Under the pieces are notes generated by a model that saw only the letters and a list, made by a program, of their open reading frames with translations, did no database searches and was not told the DNA's origin. The position numbers and the translations under genes are program-made. Positions 3,931 through 46,866 of a stretch of 64,000 bases of DNA are shown here, piece after piece; within the stretch, counting starts at the first letter, position 1; every line of letters starts with the position of its first letter. This DNA is from Halichondria panicea (Eukaryota; Porifera; Demospongiae; Suberitida; Halichondriidae): assembly GCF_963675165.1 (NCBI RefSeq), contig NC_087393.1, positions 3,043,502 through 3,107,501 of the forward strand, given 5' to 3'.

Positions 3931-6810
3931 GTGTTGAACCAGTTAAGCATGAGCCTCAAGGAGAAGCTGGAGGAGATTAAGCTACTGGATGCTGAGATTC
4001 TGACGCTTGTGGGAGATGATGAACTGGAGGATGAGATTGGGCGAGCTGACAACTACAAGGAGCGTGTCTACGCCAGCCTGATCGAGATTGAGGCTCCAGT
4101 GACATCTCGGGTCCCTGCAAGGACTACACCCGCAATGGCTATGCCAGCAGTAAGGTCAGACTACCTAAATTATTGATTAAGCCTTTCAATGGGATTTTAA
4201 CTCAATGGACTCCCTTTTGGGACTCGTATAAGTGTGCAATTCATGAGAACCCCGAGCTTTCAAAGGTTGATAAGTTTAATTATTTGAGGTCTATGGTGTC
4301 TAATACGGCCCTCGAGGCAATATCTGGTTTGACCCTCACAGATGCTAATTATGACGAAGCGATCGATCTATTGCAAAAGCGATTTGGTAATAAACAACTT
4401 ATCATAAATAAACACATGGAGCAATTGCTACATGTCGATGGGGTGGCCTCCCAGAATGATACCAAAGGGATCAGACAATTATACGATGTGATTGAATCGA
4501 ACGTACGAAGCCTCAAATCGTTAGGGGTCAGTGCCGAGTCGTATGGATCGTTGTTATCATCTGTTTTAATGAGTAAGCTACCGTCCGAATTGAGATTAAT
4601 CGCTAGTCGAAAGTTTGGAGACAGTGAAAGTTGGGATTTTACAGAGCTATTGGGTGTAATTGAAGAGGAGGTTCAGGCTCGAGAACGGTCGACAACACGG
4701 GCGAATTCTGAACCCACACGGGGAACTGAAACCCGTCGACCAAAGGAACACCCGACTGGAGCGGCACTATTTACCGAGACCACCACACTCAAATGCTGCT
4801 TTTGTGAACGAGAGCATGCTTCGCAAGATTGTCGAACGGTTGCAAGCATTGAGTCTCGTCGCGAGGTTATCAGAAGAACTGGTAGATGCTACATATGTCT
4901 TGGAAAGGGGCATGTGTCCCGGAACTGCCGCAGCCGAATCAAGTGTCGTAGTTACAAAGGAAGGCATCATGTCGCGATATGTTCAGGCCAACCTAGGCGA
5001 AAGGCACCAGAAAACAAACAACAGGAATCACCTCGTACAGGAGGGCTCGACCCTGAAGCCCCCCCTTTCCAGCTACCAAAAACGGGATTATTATGGACGT
5101 ATTCTAGTAAACCTGTACTTCTTCAAACAGCAAGAGCCACTGCATACAATCCAGACTGTCCGTCAACCTCTTTGAGTGTTCGAATGGTGATGGATACTGG
5201 CAGCCAGAGATCATACATTACAAACAGTGCGAGGAGCCGACTCGAGTTGACCGCTGCAGGAGAACAACGTATGACTATCATGACATTTGGGTCCGCCCAG
5301 AATGGTGACAGTGTCTGTGAATATGTAAAACTAGGGCTCAAGCTGAAGAATGGGGAGACGCAAAATCTCTCACTGTTCACTGTACCTACGATCTGTGAGC
5401 CGTTAAAGCCTCATCCCCTCGTTGACTATAGAAGGACATATCCACACTTGAGTGGATTAGAGTTTGCTGACGATCCGGAAGACGCTGAGACAATCCATGT
5501 GGATATGCTAGTTGGGTCTGATCACTATTGGGACCTCGTAACCGGAGCACTGCAGAGAGGAACAAACGGGCCAGTTGCCATCGAAACGAGACTCGGATGG
5601 GTTCTCTCTGGTCCTATTTCCACTCCGAGTATGGATTCTCACGGTTTAATAACACATTCGCTGCACATCACTTGTGAAGGATTTGAGGAAAAGATGCTGA
5701 ATGACACGATGAGATCGTTTTGGGAACTGGAATCCTTTGGAATCCCAAACACAGATCGATCACTGTACGATAAACTTCGTGACACAATAGAGTTTCGTGA
5801 AGGAAGGTACGAAGTTCAACTTCCATGGAAGGCACCGAGACTGGACCTTCCCAACAACTACGCGCTTAGTTTGAAGAGATTGAAGGGGTTGCTTCGACGC
5901 CTCCGACACGACCCAGATGTACTACGCGAGTATGACATGGTGATCAAGACGCAGTTTGAGCAGGGGATCGTTGAATTAGTAGAGGATTTGGCAAACAGGC
6001 CCGATGTACACTATTTACCTCATCATCCAGTAATCCGAAAGGATAAAACGACCACGAAAGTGCGAGTGGTCTACGATGCCTCGGCCAAAACGACAAGGAC
6101 CGAAATTCGATCAAAAAATCCTTGACATTCTTTGTCGGTTTAGAACCCATCGAGTTGCTGTAACAGCCGATATCGAAAAGGCGTTTCTTATGATATCTGT
6201 GGCAGCTAAGGATCGAGATTTCTTGCGGTTCTTGTGGGTGGACGATGCAGTTAAGGACGAGCCGAGAATTGTTGTGTATCGGTTCGCTAGAGTGGTATTT
6301 GGGGTGAATGCCAGCCCCTTCTTGTTGAACGCCACCATCCGACACCATCTTGAAATACACGCGGACACACACCGTGAAATTGTTTCCAAGGTGATACGGT
6401 CGATCTATGTCGATGATATTGTAACAGGTTCACAATCGGAAGAGCAAGCTTATCAGTTGTACAGTGAAGCTAAAACCTTGCTGAAGACGGGTGCATTCAA
6501 CTTGCGAAAGTTTTACACTAATGCAACGAGATTGCAAGCTAAGGTGGACCTCGAGGAGTCGGCACAGCATCAAGATGAGCCTAAGCCAATGGAAACATAT
6601 TCACAGTCCACACTGAGTGGCAATGGAGAACTTTGCGATGCTGAGCAAAGAATTCTTGGATTGAAGTGGAATATCACCTCAGATCAGATTATCTTCTCAT
6701 TAGCCGATTTGGCTGAACAAGCCCGAAGACTGGAGCCCACCAAAAGGAACGTCATCAGCCTTATCGGGAGGGTGTATGACCCATTAGGATTCTTGGCCCC
6801 AATTGTAGTG
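3931..6810 (+). pseudogene. BEL/Pao gag-pol, frameshifted and 3' truncated
   Basis: Order of domains: an N-terminal acidic coiled-coil region (about 3931-4130), a Pao-type gag region (DUF1759-like, about 4170-4780), two zinc-knuckle-like Cys/His clusters (about 4790-4985, CYICLGKGHVSRNC), an aspartic protease with MVMDTGSQRSY (about 5185), and the reverse transcriptase from about 5800. The main 650-codon frame (4173-6125) breaks at about 6095, where copy 2 has some 30 extra bases; a different frame then carries the RT palm with SIYVDDI (about 6400). A further break lies near 4170 between the N-terminal and gag parts. RNase H and integrase are deleted. It encodes no complete polyprotein and could only be mobilised in trans. 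Confidence 0.9.
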
Positions 6811-6884
6811 AGATACTTCTCAACGCACATGGCATACATAACATTACGTAATGTTATGTATGCCATGTGCGTTGAGAAGTATCT
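6811..6884. repeat. Perfect 74-bp palindrome at the pol/3' LTR join
   Basis: The sequence from AGATACTTCTCAACGC to its mirror GCGTTGAGAAGTATCT is a perfect inverted repeat with no loop, centred between 6847 and 6848. The right arm is normal LTR sequence. The left arm is the same LTR piece inverted and fused to pol at AGATAC, a six-base match present at both pol and inverted LTR. Confidence 0.95.
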
Positions 6885-6989
6885 CACTGTGAAAATCGAA
6901 ATAAGTGTTAACGTTTGAACTATCTAATATAATCCTAGTCAGCAGTAGCACCTCAGTGCATGGAATAGCTCTCTCTCCGAAATATTACA
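6848..6989 (+). repeat. 3' LTR of BEL/Pao copy 1, 5'-truncated
   Basis: The last 142 bp of the LTR, ending ATATTACA just before the CTCCT target duplication. The first ~45 bp of the LTR are missing and replaced by the palindrome arm. Confidence 0.9.
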
Positions 6990-9535: not shown

Positions 9536-10060
9536 GAAGGCACTACAATAACATGCAGGGACAGGAACTGACATGTAGCTTAGGTATACATTACGGTGTA
9601 CTTTAACATACAATTAATGGGGCGCATATTAATTAGTACACAAGGTGAAGAGGTTCTATTTTGTATGCAGACACACAGTATACACACTTAACTTATCTTA
9701 GCTTCTTAGCTTCCTAGGCAGGCCCAAGGTGAGCAGATATTTTCTTTCCAGAAGAGCACATGTCCAGATCACGTGAGGTAGTTTATTCTATTTGAAGCAC
9801 CTCTATTTGAAGCACCACTGACACAATTTAATTTTGTGATGCTAGCATGCAATGGGAAGAACCTCTCTTACTAAGAGAAAGCTAAGGTCAAGACAAAAGA
9901 GCAAAAGGAGAGAAAGAAAAAAGTCTTCCTTGATCATGCCAAATGGCTTACGTCAACCTGGTGAGCTGCCAGTTGTGCTCGGCCTGGCTTTCTCTAAAAG
10001 GAAAAAGGCCTGCAAAGGAGGCTCTAGTTCTATACTGTAGCTAGCTAGATGATAGTATTA
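9536..10060. other. No gene recognised
   Basis: A short Lys/Arg-rich + strand ORF (9852-10040) is present but unsupported. Otherwise AT-rich. Confidence 0.35.
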
Positions 10061-10520
10061 CACCGCTGTTTCAAGGCTCCACTTAGTTTGTAATTAGAAC
10101 ATTCTGCTATTCAATGAAAAATTGAAAAAATGGGTGTGGTTTTTGAACAATTGTATTTCCTGTGGTATGTCTTTCCTGTGGTATGTCATACTTATACCCA
10201 TAGCAACTCATTTGTTATTCATTGAAGTCACATGAAAGCTTGTTGACTGTCTGAATGACACCAAATGCGCATAGCAACAAGCTTTTTGCTGCGCGTGCGC
10301 ACCAAGAAACTACACTGCACTCAATTAGTGTACTACTGTCTGGAGATAAGTGGATGTTTTTACAACTCTCTAACCACTAACAAGAATAGTGAAAGAGGAA
10401 GTGTTCTAGTACTACTGCACAATAAAAGGTAATGGGCTGATTTTTGTGCAAAAATAAAATTAGGTTTGAAACTTGACAAAATAATTATAACTACGACTAC
10501 ATAATAATTAGTATACATAC

Positions 10521-13500
10521 ATGCAGAAACAACATTCAGGAATGAGTGAGGAGCACATTGCTGTACTCTCCCAGCACTGCCGGGTGTGCGGATCTCATTT
10601 TAAAAACAAGAAGAGAGTCGATCTCTTAGAGGTTTTTGGGATCGATGTCAATGAAGACCAGGATGAAATTCATATTGCCACCCTTGATGTATCATACCAA
10701 AGCAGCAGAAAAAGACAAAACGGAATACAACCCCAGGAAAGTCATTGCAACATGGTCGGCACACACTGAAAATTGCTTAGTATGCTCGAGTGATAGCGTT
10801 CACAGTGTTGGTGGGAGACCCAGTATACAAACCTGGTAGACCAGTCCTTTCTGTCAGCCATCAAACAGCAATAGCTCCCCTCAGTTTTTGTCAGAAGAAA
10901 ACAGTTTTTCAAATGCCCCCTGTGTTTAGAGATTCTAGATAGAGTGTGATACACTCGTCTGTGCCGATTGCTTGTGTACACGGTTGCAAGGGTACACGGT
11001 TGCAGAGCACATCGTGTCCTTGCTGCCATACAGAGCACCTCAGCGATTTGGACACAATCCAACCTCCGTCCAAGATTACTCTCAGGGCATTAGAAACCAT
11101 TGAGGTTACGTGCAGTGAGTGTGCAAAACGAGGGTACCTAAAACATCACAAGGCCCACGTTGATAGCACGTTGATAGCACAGAGCACTTCAACCCTGTAC
11201 CAATAGAACTCGACCCATCTGACCTTTTGAACAACTGTCACCGTTCGAGGAGAAACTACAATCGAGGCTGATCAAACGCAGTATGCACAGAGGAAGGTGA
11301 GGGAAATAATTATTACCAAAGGATTATAATCTAATTCGTACCATGTAATACATGTATTTTTTACAGCCACTGACTTTTGTACAAGTAAGCTCACCTCGAG
11401 TATCCAGTGGCAGTGCCAGCCAAACCACTCTCAAACGGCGTAGTACTGAGTAGTACTGAGCTGTTGGAAGTACGCAAAAGCGTGAGCGATGTACAGCACG
11501 AAAGGAAGACCGGGAGAAGTTGGTTGACGGACTGGGAATTCAATCGGTCTTGATGATTCCGTTTTACAAGCTACGAATCATGAAGAAGTAATACATGTAC
11601 AATAATTATAACATCTCTCTTACCTCAAGCAATTTTCGCACTTTAACCCTGTACCAATAGAACTCTACCCATCTGACCTTTTGAACTTTTGAAGAACTGT
11701 CACCGTTCGAGGAGAAACTACAATCGAGGCTGATCAAACGCAGTAGCTGAAAGTGAAGACAGGAGGAACGGTGAGGGAAATATTACCAAGGGATTATAAT
11801 CTAATTCGTACCATGTAATACATGTATTTTTTACAGCCACTGACTTTTGTGCAAGTAAGCTCACCTTGAGTATCCGGTGGCAGTGCCCAGCCAAACCACT
11901 CTCAAACGGCGTAGTACTGAGCTGTTGGAAGTACGCAAGAGGGTGAGCGGTGGTGAGGATGTACTGCAGTTGAGCAATGAGGTGGACTGGGAGAAGTTGG
12001 TTGAGGAGCTCAAGAAAACTACGGACTGCTTAGCTTGGGAATTCAATCGGTCTTGATGATTCCGTTTTACAAGCTACGAATAAGTAATACATGTACAATA
12101 ATTATCTTACCTCAAGCTCTATACAGGAAGATGCGAGCAGAAGGCAATTCACCTCAAGTCTGAGCTGGTTCCTTTCACCTTCCCACTCAGAGATGGTAGA
12201 CACACGGTAGAAATACCTATGTGCTACACTCCAAATCTGTGGGAGTACGATGACGCTGAGAGGAGGTGTAATTTCATGTAACCATACAGATACTGTGTAA
12301 CACTTTTCATCTATTTAGAGTGCACCGACTGACGTGGCACAATGGCAGGATCCCAGAGAGTGAGATATGGGTCAAGCTGGGAGGCGACAAGGGAGGAGGG
12401 AGTTCAAGGGAGGAGGGAGTTTTAAGATGAATTTTCAAATCTACAACGTCGATCACCCCAACTCCCCTGTCAATACCTGTGCGTTTTGTGTGTCCTCAGA
12501 ATAGCGTTACAGAGGTTCCAGGACGAGGTCGACAGCATGCACACCAGACATACTACCTATAACATAATTATTACAATTATAGAGGAAAGAGTATCAGGGT
12601 GTACTAGTTTCTGTCAGGTGCTTCAGGTAAATGTACACAAATATTTCATACTTCGCATATCATATTTCGCATAATTGTGATAGGGTGCCTGATAATTTCG
12701 GATCAGCTGAGGACACCACCCACAACAGAACAGTGGAGAGTAGAAGTACTGACAGCATCGTGCGGGACAACCAAAGATTTATGGCAGCAGGAGGGACAAA
12801 GCAGGAGGGACAAAGTGAAGAGCTACTTGCGTCAGGGAACCGTTTTTTAAGCAGTCAAGTAGAAAATATATTTTATTTAACACCCACCTTAACACCCACC
12901 TTTTTCTGAAATGCAGGTCTGCCCTCCAGGTCTGCATATTGGTTTGGGACCGTCTGTTCCAATTAATGGAGGATCAGTGTCATCAGTTAGAAGTTGACAG
13001 TCGTGAGAAGGGCGGTCCGTCATACATGGATGAAGCCAGAACCCGAGCTAGACATCCCTACAGAAACTTGTGTAGGGCAAATGAGCTCACCTGAATGATC
13101 TTGTGGGCAGTGTTCGGACAGGGTGAGGAAGGTGAGGATCCTGAGCTGCAAGCCCTCCGCTCCGAGCTCGAGGAGAAAGCCCTGCATGTGAACAAACTGG
13201 TAAGTGCTACATGTAATTACTACACTATAGTGTGTATGTATCATATACACACAATTTTCAGGACACTGAGTGGGCCAAACTAGACGCACTTACGAGTGCG
13301 GGTTTCAAGCGAGCCCCTTTGTTAAAGCCATAGACACTGCAGGTACTATAGTGGAACATTTGTTGGGAATCATGTCGACCGAACGCTAATTTAATTACCA
13401 AGTATTTATAATTATTGTGATGGGTTGTTTTTACAGCCAAAGAGTTTTTACAGCCAAAGAACATAGTGGAGCTTTGTAACGCAGTGGTGCTGGCAGCAGG

Positions 13501-13966
13501 TAACTACCAACCTGCTATTATGGAGAAGGCAGAGAAGATCCAGAGGACATTTTCGGTTGTATTTGATCTTTTTAGCAAGTGTCACAACATCTACAGTGAG
13601 TGTATATGCTTCCCTAGGTATAGGTAAATTATTTGTCTAAAGAAATGCCACAAATTACCTTGTAATTCCATCCAAAGATTGCACATCAAATCATTCATGA
13701 CGTACTACCGAGAGTCGTGATACCAAAAATGCATATGCTGGAGAAGCACGTAGTTGACTGGCTCAACGAGTGGAAGGTAGGATTAGGACAGATGGGCGAG
13801 CAAGGGGCAGAGTGATTCAAGCCTACTTTACTTTACTTTACTTTAATAATCTCAAGGGATCGTATCGGAACATTGCAAATGGAGTCGATAGGCTGAGATG
13901 TATGATGAGGACACACTTTATCCATGTTGCACCATGTTGCACCGTCTACCATAACGTGCCGACCTT
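10521..13966 (+). pseudogene. RAG1-like transposase, multiple frameshifts
   Basis: Reading + strand in order: (1) HCRVCGSHFK, then VFGIDVNED and IHP, then WSAHTENCLVC (10577-10800), matching the Cys/His zinc module at the RAG1 N-terminus; (2) a RING-like cluster CPLCLEIL ... LVCADCL ... TSCPCC (about 10910-11035); (3) a C2H2-like segment VTCSECAKRGYLKHHKAH (about 11104-11160); (4) a linker region, tandemly duplicated; (5) the core start WHNGRIPESEIWVKLGGDKG (from 12328), whose Asp is the candidate first catalytic acid, and IYNVDHPNSPVNT; (6) RFQDEVDSMH (about 12510), DNQRFMAAGG, CPPGLHIGLG (about 12920); (7) MHMLEKH (about 13731), the H-x4-H zinc pair, and GQMGEQGAE (13782-13808) with the candidate catalytic Glu; (8) MMRTHFIHVAP. 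The segment expected to hold the second Asp and the CxxC zinc pair is not visible. Introns are plausible (GTGAG near 11295, TTTTTTACAG near 11366). At least five frame breaks and some in-frame stops make it inactive. Confidence 0.7.
11160..12090 (+). repeat. Tandem segmental duplication inside the RAG1-like gene
   Basis: About 420-450 bp, from TTCAACCCTGTACCAATAGAACTC to GGTCTTGATGATTCCGTTTTACAAG, occurs twice (about 11180-11600 and 11641-12085). Each copy contains the end of one exon, an intron with TTTTTTACAG, and the next exon (PLTFVQVSSP...LKRRSTELLEVRK). The second copy keeps about 70 coding bases that are lost in the first. It is a partial exon duplication specific to this copy. Confidence 0.85.
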
Positions 13967-14439
13967 CTGTGAAGAGGAACCTTCTTTAGCATGCATGATA
14001 ATTTTACATGCATGATATTTTACACAGTATCAATACTTACCTGAAAGCTTCCTTTATAGTATACTGCTTGTTACTAGTCTTGGAAAACGCGTTTGTGGAC
14101 AGAAGCGCTTCTTTGCTGCAGACACCATTCATGTTGGCCACAACATGTACTTGTACAAGCAGCTACAACTAAAGCTGTGTTCGCGTGATTTTTATGAAAC
14201 GGGAAGTACAGAATTTACACATACTTAGGAACTCCCCTTCCCATGGGGATACTCCTAAGACCAGACCCATTTCCACTGGCTTGTGGTTTTTGGAATGATG
14301 TCATAATCATGTACTACATCCTGATAAACTAAGTGGTGAATTTTCATTGTTGTGAAACAGCGGTGATTAGTATAGTATCATGACTGTGTTATCTAGATCA
14401 ACGGTGCGTGTCATTCCTTAGCAACTTCTGATTGTGACT

Positions 14440-30399: not shown

Positions 30400-31077
30400 T
30401 TAAATGGCTTTAATTGTTGGAGCAAAGATTGGCGAACATAGTGCTGACACAGAAGTAGTATATGTGTAACAGTCCAGAAGGCCTTCCATAGATATAGCTG
30501 CAATAGCAGAAACTCTTTGCCCGCGCACAAGTAGCTTAGTTGATACAGCAGGTCTGCCCCTTATGCTGTATCCATATCTCCTCAAGCAAGCAGTTCCTTC
30601 TGTCTGCTCCAGTTTCATCTACAAAAACAAACATTTGAGGGTGGCCACGAAAAACTTGCATGTCAAGGAGGTACTCTGCCCTCAGTAATTCACTCCTCTG
30701 CTTTGCTACGAGTACCATCTTTTGCCGTGTGATGTTCAAGCTCTTCCAAATTGTGCTGGTGTCCACATTGGTTCCAATTAGAGTCTGCTGTATCTCACAT
30801 AGAAACACTGCTGGAGTCTCAGCAATTGTTTCCAAGATGATGATTTTGTCTATCTCTGTTAAACTAGCTGTTCCAGTGTTTGGAGGATATATTTTCTTTT
30901 CAACATTGCCAGAAGTATTGAACAAAGATACAGTTCTGCTCACTGTAGATAAGTCAACACAGAGATTTTGTGCTACAGTTCGACATGACTTTTTCAACCC
31001 TTCTACTTGGTAAACAATCCGCCATCTGAGGTCAGCTGAGTAAGCCTTAGTTCGCTTTGGCTCGCAAGACATTTTGA
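30400..31077 (-). pseudogene. Tc1/mariner-type transposase, 3' truncated and frameshifted
   Basis: The minus strand starts at ATG 31075 with a basic lead, then a helix-turn-helix pair (AYSADLRWRIVYQVEG ... LCVDLSTVSRTVSLF), a linker with GTASLTEID and DTSTIWKSL, and the first catalytic Asp in MFVFVDETGADRRN (about 30620). A frameshift near 30590 moves the reading to a frame carrying RRYGYSIRGRPAVS and RISAIAAI-like sequence to about 30470. The second Asp and the Glu are missing. It lies inside the ORF at 29706-31280, in opposite orientation. Confidence 0.7.
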
Positions 31078-31189
31078 ATTTCCCACTCAGGTCTACGGGA
31101 TTCGTTTTCAAGCCGCCCTCGAGGCCTGTAATCGAGGCTATTACCATAGTAAAATCTAATTATGGTTACTCATTAGTAACCACAGTGTA

Positions 31190-41361: not shown

Positions 41362-41377
41362 ATCGAGCTACTAAGCT

Positions 41378-44300
41378 GTGAAGAGCCGTTTAGAGAAACT
41401 TCCAAAATTGAAGAACGTGACCTCCAATGGCGGAAGAACTAACACGCGGAAGAGGAGAGTGAGAGGCGGCCACAAGGCGTCCGCCACTAGGATAATGACG
41501 AGAGTAGAGGAGATGCTGAGCTCTGGAGATGAACCACAACGAGCTGTGTTGAACCAGTTAAGCATGAGCCTCAAGGAGAAGCTGGAGGAGATTAAGCTAC
41601 TGGATGCTGAGATTCTGACGCTTGTGACGCTTGTGGGAGATGATGAACTGGAGGATGAGATTGGGCGAGCTGACAACTACAAGGAGCGTGTCTACGCCAG
41701 CCTGATCGAGATTGAGGCTCCAGTGACATCTCGGGTCCCTGCAAGGACTACACCTGCAATGGGCTATGCCAGCAGTAAGGTCAGACTACCTAAATTATTG
41801 ATTAAGCCTTTCAATGGGATTTTAACTCAATGGACTCCCTTTTGGGACTCGTATCGTATAAGTGTGCAATTCATGAGAACCCCGAGCTTTCAAAGGTTGA
41901 TAAGTTTAATTATTTGAGGTCTATGGTGTCTAATACGGCCCTCGAGGCAATATCTGGTTTGACCCTCACAGATGCTAATTATGACGAAGTGATCGATCTA
42001 TTGCAAAAGCGATTTGGTAATAAACAACTTATCATAAATAAACACATGGAGCAATTGCTACATGTCGATGGGGTGGCCTCCCAGAATGATACCAAAGGGA
42101 TCAGACAATTATACGATGTGATCGAATCGAACGTACGAAGCCTCAAATCGTTAGGGGTCAGTGCCGAGTCGTATGGATCGTTGTTATCATCTGTTTTAAT
42201 GAGTAAGCTACCGTCCGAATTGAGATTAATCGCTAGTCGAAAGTTTGGAGACAGTGAAAGTTGGGATTTTACAGAGCTATTGGGTGTAATTGAAGAGGAG
42301 GTTCAGGCTCGAGAACAGTCGACAACACGGGCGAATTCTGAACCCACACGGGGAACTGAAACCCGTCGACCAAAGGAACACCCGACTGGAGCGGCACTAT
42401 TTACCGAGACCACCACACTCAAATGCTGCTTTTGTGAACGAGAGCATGCTTCGCAAGATTGTCGAACGGTTGCAAGCATTGAGTCTCGTCGCGAGGTTAT
42501 CAGAAGAACTGGTAGATGCTACATATGTCTTGGAAAGGGGCATGTGTCCCGGAACTGCCGCAGCCGAATCAAGTGTCGTAGTTACAAAGGAAGGCATCAT
42601 GTCGCGATATGTTCAGGCCAACCTAGGCGAAAGGCACCAGAAAACAAACAACAGGAATCACCTCGTACAGGAGGGCTCGACCCTGAAGCCCCCCCTTTCC
42701 AGCTACCAAAAACGGGATTATTATGGACGTATTCTAGTACACCTGTACTTCTTCGAACAGCAAGAGCCACTGCATACAATCCAGACTGTCCGTCAACCTC
42801 TTTGAGTGTTCGAATGGTGATGGATACTGGCAGCCAGAGATCATACATTACAAACAGTGCGAGGAGCCGACTCGAGTTGACCGCTGCAGGAGAACAACGT
42901 ATGACTATCATGACATTTGGGTCCGCCCAGAATGGTGACAGTGTCTGTGAATATGTAAAACTAGGGCTCAAGCTGAAGAATGGGGAGACGCAAAGTCTCT
43001 CACTGTTCACTGTACCTACGATCTGTGAGCCATTAAAGCCTCATCCCCTCGTTGACTATAGAAGGACATATCCACACTTGAGTGGATTAGAGTTTGCTGA
43101 CGATCCGGAAGACGCTGAGACAATCCATGTGGATATGCTAGTTGGGTCTGATCACTATTGGGACCTCGTAACCGGAGCACTGCAGAGAGGAACAAACGGG
43201 CCAGTTGCCATCGAAACGAGACTCGGATGGGTTCTCTCTGGTCCTATTTCCACTCCGAGTATGGATTCTCACGGTTTAATAACACATTCGCTGCACATCA
43301 CTTGTGAAGGATTTGAGGAAAAGATGCTGAATGACACGATGAGATCGTTTTGGGAACTGGAATCCCAAACACAGATCGATCACTGTACGATAAACTTCGT
43401 GACACAATAGTACGAAGTTCAACTTCCATGGAAGGCACCGAGACTGGACCTTCCCAACAACTACGCGCTTAGTTTGAAGAGATTGAAGGGGTTGCTTCGA
43501 CGCCTCCGACACGACCCAGATGTACTACGCGAGTATGACATGGTGATCAAGACGCAGTTTGAGCAGGGGATCGTTGAATTAGTAGAGGATTTGGCAAACA
43601 GGCCCGATGTACACTATTTACCTCATCATCCAGTAATCCGAAAGGATAAAACGACCACGAAAGTGCGAGTGGTCTACGATGCCTCGGCCAAAACGAGTGG
43701 GCCCTCTCTCAACGACTGTCTGGACCAAGGACCGAAATTCGATCAAAAAATCCTTGACATTCTTTGTCGGTTTAGAACCCATCGAGTTGCTGTAACAGCC
43801 GATATCGAAAAGGCGTTTCTTATGATATCTGTGGCAGCTAAGGATCGAGATTTCTTGCGGTTCTTGTGGGTGGACGATGCAGTTAAGGACGAGCCGAGAA
43901 TTGTTGTGTATCGGTTCGCTAGAGTGGTATTTGGGGTGAATGCCAGCCCCTTCTTGTTGAACGCCACCATCTGACACCATCTTGAAATACACGCGGACAC
44001 ACACCGTGAAATTGTTTCCAAGGTGATACGGTCGATCTATGTCGATGATATTGTAACAGGTTCACAATCGGAAGAGCAAGCTTATCAGTTGTACAGTGAA
44101 GCTAAAACCTTGCTGAAGACGGGTGCATTCAACTTGCGAAAGTTTTACACTAATGCAACGAGATTGCAAGCTAAGGTGGACCTCGAGGAGTCGGCACAGC
44201 ATCAAGATGAGCCTAAGCCAATGGAAACATATTCACAGTCCACACTGAGTGGCAATGGAGAACTTTGCAATGCTGAGCAAAGAATTCTTGGATTGAAGTG

Positions 44301-46866
44301 GAATATCACCTCAGATCAGATTATCTTCTCATTAGCCGATTTGGCTGAACAAGCCCGAAGACTGGAGCCCACCAAAAGGAACGTCATCAGCCTTATCGGG
44401 AGGGTGTATGACCCATTAGGATTCTTGGCCCCAATTGTAGTGAGATACAAGGTGTTCATGCAGTCTTTATGCAAGGCCAAGATTGGCTGGGACGAGAAAA
44501 TACCGGAGGCCTCGATAACGCAGTGGAGCAAACTCGTGTTGGCTTTGGAAGATGCGCAGCCTTTGACAATTCCTAGATGCTACCTGGAAGCTGTGCAAGG
44601 TGAAGTGCTTTCCTATCAGCTTTGCGGCTACTGTGATGCCTCACTGTCAGCGTACGCTGCAGTTATCTATTTGTTGATTGAGACCAAAGACAAGACTCAC
44701 ATGCGGTTTGTGGTTGCCAAAACGAGAGTGGCACCGTTGAAGAAACAAACTGTACCTAGACTTGAGCTTCTCTCAGCAGTATTGCTCGCAAGATTAATGA
44801 ACACGACAAAATTGAGTTTGAACCCAGAGATTGAGATATCCTCTTTTCACTGCTTCATTGACTCCCAAGTCGCTCTATGCTGGATAAGAAATATAGGAAA
44901 GTCATGGAAGCCGTTCGTGCAAAACAGAGTGTCAGAAATTCGAAACCTGTTCCCAGTTGAGTGTTGGAATCACATACCAGGCGTTGAAAATCCTGCTGAT
45001 GTGCCCTCAAGGGGAACTACACCTCTCGAATTATTGGTGAACAAATTGTGGCGAGATGGTCCTAGCATGCCATTTAGGTATTCTGACAAAGCAACCGATG
45101 ACGACCTTCCCTCGGAATGCCTCGAAGAGCTCCCGGCAAGCGAGAAACGAGCCGTACATGGTCTTTTGACAATCGAGGAGTCTTCTGTTACGAACCTCAT
45201 TCAGGTCAATAATTTTAGCGATATCAACAAACTTGTCAATGTTCTCACCTACGTATTGAAGTTTTCTTCCTATATGAAGAGACTCATATCTCCTACCACA
45301 GTTTGTAAAAATGAAAGAATGATTGCCGAAGTACTCCTAATAAAGGAAGCACAACTGTTGCTGAGAGATCACAAGAATTTCTTAATGTGGGAGAAGCAGT
45401 TGTTCCTTTTCGAAGATGAACATGGAGTTTTGAGAAGTCGAGGGAGAATTGCCAATGCAACTTTACCATACTCGACCAAGCACCCTATTATTTTGCCGAG
45501 TGACCATCCTCTGACAACAATGTATATCCGTCAATCTCATAGTCGAGTGCTACACAACGGTGTAAAGGAGACCCTCACCGAACTCAGGTCACGATTCTGG
45601 GTGATAAAGGGAAGAAGTGTAGTCAAGCAAGTTCTTCACAGTTGCAACACCTGCAGACGACACGAAGGAATGTCCTGCCGAGTACCACCACCCCCCCCAC
45701 CCCCCCCCACTGCCTACTTTTAGAGTTCAAGAAGCACCACCCTTTACGAGCACTGGTGTTGATTTTGCTGGACCATTGTACGTCAAGCATCCTGGTGGAG
45801 TGCAAACGAAGGTTTGGATAGTATTATACACTTGTTGTGTTACCAGAGCTATCCACCTGGACCTTGTGAGTGACATGTCGGCACCCACATTCATACGAAG
45901 TTTCAAAATGTTTAGCGCGAGGAGAGGCTTACCTGCAATGATGATATCTGATAATGGCAAAACTTTTGTAGCAGCAGACTTTTGTAGCAGCAGCCAAGAC
46001 CATCAAGAGGGTCGTATCCAGCCCAGAAGTACAGAACTATCTGGAAGGAACTGGTTGTGAATGGAGATTCAATGTCCCAAGGGCCCCATGGTGGGGAGGC
46101 TTGTTTGAACAACTTGTCAGATCGACTTAACGTTGCTTGAGGAAGGCTTTAGGTCAAGCCAAGTTTTCGTATGACGAATTGCTGACTGCCTTGGTAGAGA
46201 TTGAGATGGTGCTAAACTCTAGACCACTCACCTACATTTCTGCAGATGATTTGGATGAACCTCTCACACCTTCACACCTGCTTGTTGGCCGACGACTTAT
46301 GAGCTTTCCGGACCACCTATTTTGTGACGAGGATACTGATTGCGAAGTAGACAGTTACCAACTAAATGCTCGATTGAAACATCTTAATCACTCATTGGAT
46401 GCCCATTGGATGCCTTTTGGAAAAGATGGAGAAAAGAATATTTGGTGGAATTGCGTGAAGCGCACCGTCACTATCGCAGTAATGGAGAACCACAAATCAC
46501 TGAAGGTGACGTTGTTGTTGTTTACTCAGATGCCCAACCCTGTAGCTTTTGGAAGCTCGGAAGAATTGAACGACTACTAGTTGGAGCCGATGGCCAAATC
46601 AGGGCAGCTAGTGTTAGAATCAGTAACAAGGGACGCACATCAGTAATGAACAGGCCCATCCAGCATTTGTACCCACTTGAGGCGGCCCCACCAGCTGATC
46701 CTGTGTCGGACGATCCTGCATTGGAACCCACTGACGACAGCAAGAATCCCGACCAATCAACTAACGTTTCGCTGAGACCAAAGAGGTCTGCTGCTGCATT
46801 GGCTCGTGACCGTATTCTAGCACAGGCAGCCTCTGATATGGAATTCGACACTGATAATGGAATTTG
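41378..46866 (+). pseudogene. BEL/Pao gag-pol polyprotein, several frame breaks
   Basis: Domains in order: basic and coiled-coil N-terminus with gag (41378-41900, continuing 41860-42430); zinc knuckles (about 42420-42610); aspartic protease with DTGS (about 42825); RT from about 43430, with YVDD (about 44035); RNase H around 44630-44890; integrase zinc finger (HSRVLHNG ... HSCNTC, about 45535-45650) and DDE core from about 45760 (ISDNGKTF) to the Glu in LFEQLVRS; a C-terminal DUF5641-like part (about 46545-46680). Breaks seen: a 9-bp and a 5-bp tandem duplication (41618-41635, 41850-41859), stops at 43408 and 43972, a C-tract at 45693-45709 followed by a stop, a 16-bp duplication at 45962-45993, a stop near 46128, and an 11-bp duplication at 46393-46414. 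The product cannot be complete as written. Confidence 0.9.

Follow-up and report, generated by a model that had tools for sequence, protein, structure and literature searches.

A decayed, probably Chapaev-type transposon with a RAG1-type N-terminal region and asymmetric bipartite ends in the sponge Halichondria panicea

The element and its remnants

We describe here a transposon copy in a stretch of 64,000 nucleotides from the demosponge Halichondria panicea (contig NC_087393.1 of assembly GCF_963675165.1, positions 3,043,502 to 3,107,501 of the forward strand; the whole stretch is called the window, and positions are counted from its first letter). A 4.3-kb unit at 10061-14365 begins and ends with exact 13-bp inverted tips, CACCGCTGTTTCA, at 10061-10073 (+) and 14353-14365 (-), carries an inner CCACTTAGTTT block (within CACTTAGTTT) inside each of the two tips, and is flanked on both sides by ATTA (10057-10060 and 14366-14369). 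An earlier note on this DNA had reported the inverted ends, the subterminal inverted block and the ATTA flanks, and all were found again. The unit is a dead, decayed copy of a multi-copy transposon. Stops or frameshifts interrupt what is left of exons 1, 2, 4, 6, 8 and 11, exon 1 also has gaps, and a tandem duplication of 450-480 bp lies within the copy. The explanation that best accounts for it, and in our view a very probable one, is a dead copy of a multi-copy cut-and-paste transposon of the Chapaev type with a RAG1-type front. Its parts, including the target-site duplication (TSD) on either side, are as follows.

10057-10060, no strand: left TSD, ATTA, from flank reading
10061-10073, +: left terminal block CACCGCTGTTTCA, exact, 42 copies across the genome
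10074-10079, +: left spacer, 6 bp here and 7 in most copies, from end comparison
10080-10089, +: left inner block CACTTAGTTT, from end comparison
10542-11288, +: decayed exon 1, RAG1-type N-terminus (Chapa zinc region, RING, ZFA-like) with gaps and frameshifts, from tblastn with exon 1 of the relative L015, borders approximate
11184-12117, +: internal tandem duplication (11184-11630 and 11638-12117, 78% identical by self-BLAST), by which exon 2 and the end of exon 1 are present twice
11367-11588, +: decayed exon 2, first copy (second copy at 11889-12047), borders approximate
12150-12245, +: decayed exon 3
12320-12560, +: decayed exon 4 with the first catalytic Asp motif GGDKGGGS; the homologous exon in relatives matches DUF1280
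12686-12851, +: decayed exon 6, C(2)C motif region
12912-13202, +: decayed exons 7 and 8
13332-13388, +: decayed exon 9, YYSGTFVGNHV motif
13448-13600, +: remnant of exon 10
13717-13977, +: decayed exon 11 with H(4)H and the catalytic Glu motif GEQGAE
14326-14335, -: right inner block CACTTAGTTT, from end comparison
14336-14352, -: right spacer, 17 bp, from end comparison
14353-14365, -: right terminal block CACCGCTGTTTCA, exact
14366-14369, no strand: right TSD, ATTA, from flank reading

The word TGTGGTTTTTG occurs near both ends of the element (10135-10145 and 14282-14292), both times in the orientation of the + strand.

Copies across the genome and recent movement

Within the window alone the tips are weak evidence, three matches at two or fewer mismatches being found against a chance mean of 1.59. 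A scan of the 131-Mb genome (39 contigs; the one genome covered) gave 42 occurrences of the exact 13-mer against a single one for a reversed-pattern control. Collecting copies with the same ends and reading their TSDs, as the earlier note had advised, showed that all nine convergent exact-tip pairs less than 7 kb apart, the window pair included, are bordered by perfect 4-bp TSDs (ACAA, AACC, AATG, AACT, ATGT, TCAT, CGAT, GTTA, ATTA); one convergent pair 15.9 kb apart on C9 was left out of this count. A second family, with tips CACAGGTGTTTC, has 4-bp TSDs (ATGG and CAGC) in both of the copies in which the two flanks were read. The TSD is thus 4 bp long in 11 of 11 pairs with intact tips, or in 11 of 12 when the L022 pair is included, which has a mutated tip and showed no clear TSD on flank reading. 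These genome-wide tip counts and TSDs argue that the tips of the window copy are real ends.

The outer borders are further fixed by a 982-bp copy of the first family (L010; C1:16024150-16025731) and a copy of the second (L073/L076; C1:16928.9-16933.7 kb), which are inserted 2 bp apart in paralogous host sequence and provide reciprocal empty sites, placing the ends at CAC. The proximity of the two insertion points may reflect a hotspot or a coincidence. Copies of family 2 on C1 and C17 are 98.0-98.7% identical and lie at different sites with different TSDs, which argues that this family has transposed recently. Genome-wide, the core exons gave 127 matches at E<=0.001 (exon matches, not copies), PF12560 gave 17 and DUF1280 gave 14. 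For a third, family-2-like copy (C6) and for a copy on C10, no left end turned up in the sequence retrieved, which consists mostly of GT repeats; the right end of the C10 copy has lost the spacer and the inner block.

A RAG1-type N-terminal region

In the relatives L009, L013, L014, L015 and L016, some of them with lesions, the gene consists of 11 exons on the left-to-right strand, the first of which codes for about 300 residues. All eight exon-1 proteins that were aligned, some of them partial (alignment A2), matched PF12560 (RAG1_imp_bd; best 1.5e-15), and the A2 profile aligned without interruption, from its position 4 to 248, with RAG1 residues 101-378 (E=5.6e-15; 6oem, which ranked first among 25 PDB sequences, above BRCA1 and further RING proteins). 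The invariant columns of A2 include the ligands H-P-x3-C-x2-C and W-x2-H-x4-C-x2-C that are also present in RAG1, and a single exon-1 sequence matched RAG1 at 4.1e-9 in total, mainly through its Chapa part. The Chapa region is followed by a RING, for which A2 found RING matches in the PDB, and some of the eight members weak Pfam RING matches, none above the curated cut-off where shown. From these alignments we conclude that the RAG1-type N-terminus of the element is genuine.

Some observations weigh against too full an equation with RAG1. The match between A2 and RAG1 carries a composition correction of 28.7 bits, the region being rich in cysteine. Taken as a single sequence, the RING is closer to that of BRCA1 (1.6e-5) than to that of RAG1 (domain 0.068), so that the RING alone is not RAG1-specific. 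The position of its His ligand is occupied by S, N, R or K in all six proteins that cover it, and the ZFA-like stretch present in family 1 is absent from family 2; these two features make E3 ligase activity of the element's RING doubtful.

An AT-hook-like motif, GGRP(K/R)K...GRP, lies between the Chapa region and the RING in exon 1 of L013 (4259-3365, minus strand) and in relatives. The GGRPR of RAG1 starts the nonamer-binding domain, after the RING; were the two motifs homologous, their order would differ.

One could propose that the RAG1-like exon is a captured piece of a host gene that travels as a passenger, and exon 1 does evolve faster than the core (38% versus 53% identity between the two families). 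We regard this as very improbable given that exon 1 stands in the same order in six full-length copies of family 1 (the window copy being decayed) and in family 2, that the zinc-ligand columns of the Chapa region are common with RAG1, and that the ratio of nonsynonymous to synonymous substitution rates (dN/dS; Nei-Gojobori, family-1 pairs) falls at 0.07-0.19 in exon 1 (computable in 8 of 10 pairs). By the same method the ratio is 0.01-0.09 for exon 4 (4 of 6 pairs) and 0.05-0.12 for exon 11 (6 of 6), values of which the direction alone is firm because dS is near saturation, and no family-2 pair was computable. Rather than a passenger, the RAG1-like region looks to be kept by purifying selection.

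The catalytic core

Downstream of exon 1, all six core models, taken from a larger number of copies (set A1; L014 is without exons 2-3, L016 without exon 2 and L015 without the start of exon 7), matched DUF1280, at best with 1.1e-15 over 199 residues. This domain denotes Chapaev transposases, which have been assigned to the same clade of the RNase H-like superfamily as RAG1 (PMC3985635; this and the other papers given by PMC number are cited from the portions available). Read by eye on the exons and on A1, the motifs of the core follow in the order GGDKGG, SGDYEF, C(2)C, LH, H(4)H and GEQGAE; a DDE triad with C(2)C, LH and H(4)H is described as the hallmark of Chapaev (PMC4079192). The second Asp and the first Cys are separated by 19 residues after splicing, as are D708 and C727 of mouse RAG1, and the second His and the Glu by 21 residues versus 20 in RAG1 (H942-E962; residue identities checked). 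We take D708, C727, H942 and E962 to be the corresponding core motif residues of mouse RAG1.

Against a closer kinship with RAG1 stand a number of results. L009 has Glu in place of the first Asp and R in place of the second His. Neither hmmsearch of A1 against the PDB (at E<=10, HzTransib, 6pqn, included) nor a single-sequence search of the core against the PDB returned RAG1 or Transib, and hhalign of the core with mouse RAG1 gave a probability of 0.6% (E 0.09). Smith-Waterman alignment of exons 5-7 with RAG1 was modest, the score being reached by 13, 50 and 48 of 2000 shuffles, and exon 11 gave no score signal (993, 996 and 999 of 2000), the best alignment of that exon falling on E962 in each of the three copies tried and, in L013 alone, on H937 and H942 as well. 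The kinship of the core with RAG1 accordingly draws on motifs and published work, the profile tests being negative or weak, and appears to be a superfamily-level resemblance. Where the earlier note had seen RAG1-like modules at both the N-terminus and the core, the former are borne out by the match of the relatives' exon 1 to RAG1 101-378, and the latter shrink to this distant resemblance, with neither RAG1 nor Transib recovered by HMMER profile.

The same results bear on the possibility that the element is of the RAGL/ProtoRAG or TransibSU type and a direct branch of RAG1-RAG2. Its RAG1-type N-terminus, its CAC termini and the asymmetric bipartite ends described below, which recall those of ProtoRAG (PMC8289069), would all agree with such a placement. 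We nevertheless hold it to be extremely improbable, as the TSD is 4 bp in 11 of 11 intact-tip pairs versus 5 bp, the PDB profile search recovered no RAG1 with the core, genome-wide searches for PF12940 (the RAG1 core) and PF03089 (RAG2) found no match, in control genomes no more than here and hence without a positive control, PF12940 is also missing among the families matched by the members of A1, and no second gene was seen in the element. The earlier note had left the choice between a Chapaev/N-RAG-TP-type and a RAGL-type element; CAC ends, 4-bp TSDs, DUF1280 and the C(2)C, LH and H(4)H motifs favour Chapaev, and the RAGL half of the suggestion falls away on the points just given.

Bipartite and asymmetric ends

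The inner block stands at a fixed distance from the tip, and this distance differs between the two ends. A genome scan for the 13-mer followed within 2-32 bp by CACTTAGTT gave 30 matches (control 0), with 17 bp (21 matches), 7 bp (7) or 6 bp (2) in between. A second scan, for CACNNNTGTTTC followed within 5-35 bp by CACTTAGTTT, likewise gave 30 matches (control 0), the gaps being 18 (19 matches), 19 (2, both of family 2), 8 (7, two of them of family 2) and 7 (2). In all eight gene-bearing elements for which the two ends were read (six from family 1 and two from family 2), the gene is preceded by the short gap and followed by the long one. In a scan of 81 unchosen loci, many of which overlap and in which identical ends were counted once, 26 distinct ends with at most two mismatches per block and 1-45 bp between the blocks had gaps of 7 (2 ends), 8 (10), 18 (12) and 19 (2) and no other value (control 0). 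At looser limits, spacings outside these classes appeared in 4 of 32 distinct ends (tip up to 3 and block up to 2 mismatches; control 5) and in 8 of 33 (tip up to 4, block up to 1; control 3), a rate close to or somewhat above that of the control, and several of them are chance tips upstream of the true end.

Counted from the tip, CACTTAGTTT starts after 20 nucleotides on the left (19 in two copies) and after 30 or 31 on the right. When the end is instead counted as 7 bp plus CCACTTAGTTT, the spacers are 12 (11 in two left ends) and 22-23 bp, a count that depends on where the block is cut; the difference of 10-11 bp (12 at the extreme) between left and right, about one helical turn, is fixed and independent of the cut. 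The inner inverted CCACTTAGTTT of the earlier note is thus present at both ends, and the one-turn difference in its distance from the tip, on which that note had not remarked, is added to it. The asymmetry appears to be new, no account of asymmetric bipartite ends in Chapaev or sponge elements having been met in the literature searched, which lay outside Repbase and most subscription papers, and its layout resembles the geometry of the 12/23 recombination signal sequences (RSSs).

Comparison of the two families suggests that the blocks are kept while their surroundings drift. At the right end, the tip is at 0.73 identity, the 7 bp preceding the inner block (here the spacer) at 0.21 and the inner block itself at 0.99, with 0.44 over the 10 bp that follow and 0.30 at 20-40 bp beyond; at the left end the values are, in the same order, 0.85, 0.45, 0.95, 0.80 and 0.41, the block values leaning upward because the 9 left and 10 right ends compared were picked for a recognisable inner block. 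In seven of seven elements the inner block is the longest word that the two ends have in common inside the tips (reached by 0-7 of 1000 shuffles), and the subfamily of L011 and L022 keeps the right spacing with a different spacer sequence. We consider it probable that the two blocks are both contacts of the transposase.

Other observations fit less well with two such contacts at a set distance. CAATGA, on the tip side of the right spacer, is common to both families, and the spacers are hence not wholly free. For twelve of the 42 exact tips no exact inner block lies within range; among the ten of these that were read, four (L010, L011, L016 and L020) keep the block in mutated form at the spacing usual for the left end, and six have lost it or are rearranged. 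L010, finally, lacks the right inner block and yet has its own TSD; the loss may have come before or after the move.

L010 also speaks for the view that the inner CACTTAGTTT is a subterminal repeat of the terminal motif as in other CMC elements, the offset of 10-11 bp having no 12/23-like synaptic meaning. Subterminal repeats are known in CACTA elements, and the inner block does resemble the conserved tip of 12-13 bp, both reading CAC-N3/4-GTTT. We see no array of repeats, a search by exact pattern within 320 nucleotides finding one inner copy in 14 of 19 ends, none in four (mutated block) and two in one, and the same four spacing values recur in 30 of 30 matches from two families whose 7 bp before the block have diverged as given above. 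This view comes near to being an evenly balanced one.

Simple common descent, with copies too young for the spacer to have changed in length, is a further way to account for the fixed spacing. Over 60 bp, many right ends hardly differ from one another, and both families have the tip-side part of the right spacer in common. The subfamilies have, on the other hand, diverged (dS >1 in 17 of 18 computable exon pairs), and the near-identity of the inner blocks between families contrasts both with the adjoining 7 bp and with the sequence 20-40 bp beyond, so that we deem the spacing unlikely to be a mere relic of shared ancestry.

Proposed mechanism and its implications

The transposase, encoded in 11 exons, combines a front of Chapa zinc-finger, RING and ZFA-like parts with a DDE/RNase H-type DUF1280 core. 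We infer that it cuts exactly outside CAC and inserts with a 4-bp stagger. Each end would be read through two contacts, the terminal CAC..GTTTC block and the inner CACTTAGTTT. The starts of these contacts would be separated by about two helical turns at the left end and by about three at the right, making the two ends non-equivalent. That efficient synapsis needs one short and one long end, in the manner of a 12/23 pair, is a more tentative idea, and one that we think rather doubtful on the present sequence comparisons.

The ends of the element touch on the origin of the 12/23 rule in antibody-gene recombination. A fixed one-turn asymmetry in a Chapaev with a RAG1 N-terminus places a comparable arrangement of signals on a distant branch of the superfamily. 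If the pairing idea were true, 12/23 asymmetry would either be older than the divergence of Chapaev and Transib/RAG1 or have evolved more than once out of the same geometry, and 12/23-like pairing would have been in use in an early animal lineage, without RAG2, by a transposase that already had the RAG1 front. Independently of pairing, the families described here provide a RAG1 front region under purifying selection inside a transposon.

Other features of the window and genome

A retroelement, which we take to be BEL/Pao-like, is present in two copies with matching translations at 4092-6915 and 41375-46864 of the window, the first with DUF1759 and DUF1758. An open frame of 207 amino acids with an HTH_23 domain at 30539-31159 (-) may belong to another transposase, and a masked stretch of N lies beside a GT-rich repeat at about 55.8-56.4 kb. 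Elsewhere in the genome, L081 (C1:5280527-5280718) is a nuclear fragment of mitochondrial COX1 with two in-frame TGA codons, the sole piece of COX1 found. Its sequence has a sponge-like look and so hints at a sponge host; a mitochondrial contig was not seen.

Comparison with known systems

CAC ends, 4-bp TSDs, a DUF1280 core and a Chapa domain followed by a RING place the element, with high confidence, among the Chapaev-type (CMC) DNA transposons of the Chapa+RING kind, and not with RAGL or Transib. Chapaevs are reported to have CAC...GTG termini and TSDs of 3-4 bp (TWA in Chapaev3) (PMC4079192), and to carry a Chapa domain, behind which two subgroups have a RING (Kapitonov and Koonin 2015, PMC4411706). 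The fusion of Chapa and RING in Chapaevs has accordingly been published already and is not itself new (PMC4411706). The element shares with these Chapaevs, as far as they are described in the available text, the order Chapa then RING, the Chapaev core, the CAC termini and the 4-bp TSD, and differs from them in forming new families in another host, in a RING without the His ligand, in the ZFA-like segment after the RING (family 1 only) and in its bipartite asymmetric ends. The N-RAG-TP of Aplysia is alike by description only, as a transposable element with sequence like the RAG1 N-terminus (PMC8355894).

ProtoRAG and RAGL elements also have a RAG1-type N-terminus and asymmetric bipartite ends (27/31 in ProtoRAG), with other spacer lengths, a 5-bp TSD and a RAG2L gene (PMC8289069, PMC7204232); in ProtoRAG the 27/31 asymmetry matters for activity (PMC8289069). 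According to the part of PMC8355894 available, the only 12/23 asymmetry known outside V(D)J recombination is that of some Transibs, and the ends of invertebrate RAGL elements are not known to show it. Those Transibs resemble the element in the CAC tip, the two blocks and the 12/23-like difference between ends, and differ from it in a 5-bp as against a 4-bp TSD and, in the same text, in being without a RAG1-type N-terminus (PMC8355894).

The core of the element, unlike that of RAG1, is unmatched by the RAG1 profile, and no RAG2 was found in the PF03089 search already mentioned. Its terminal block is 12-13 bp long with a CACCGCT or CACAGGT tip, in place of the CACAGTG heptamer of the RSS, and its inner block is CCACTTAGTTT and not the ACAAAAACC nonamer. 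In common with RAG1 it has the N-terminal 101-378 region and the order and near-identical spacing of the core motifs, and its ends come close to the RSSs in layout: the nonamer starts after 19 nucleotides in the 12-RSS and after 30 in the 23-RSS, and CACTTAGTTT after 20 and 30-31 in the element.

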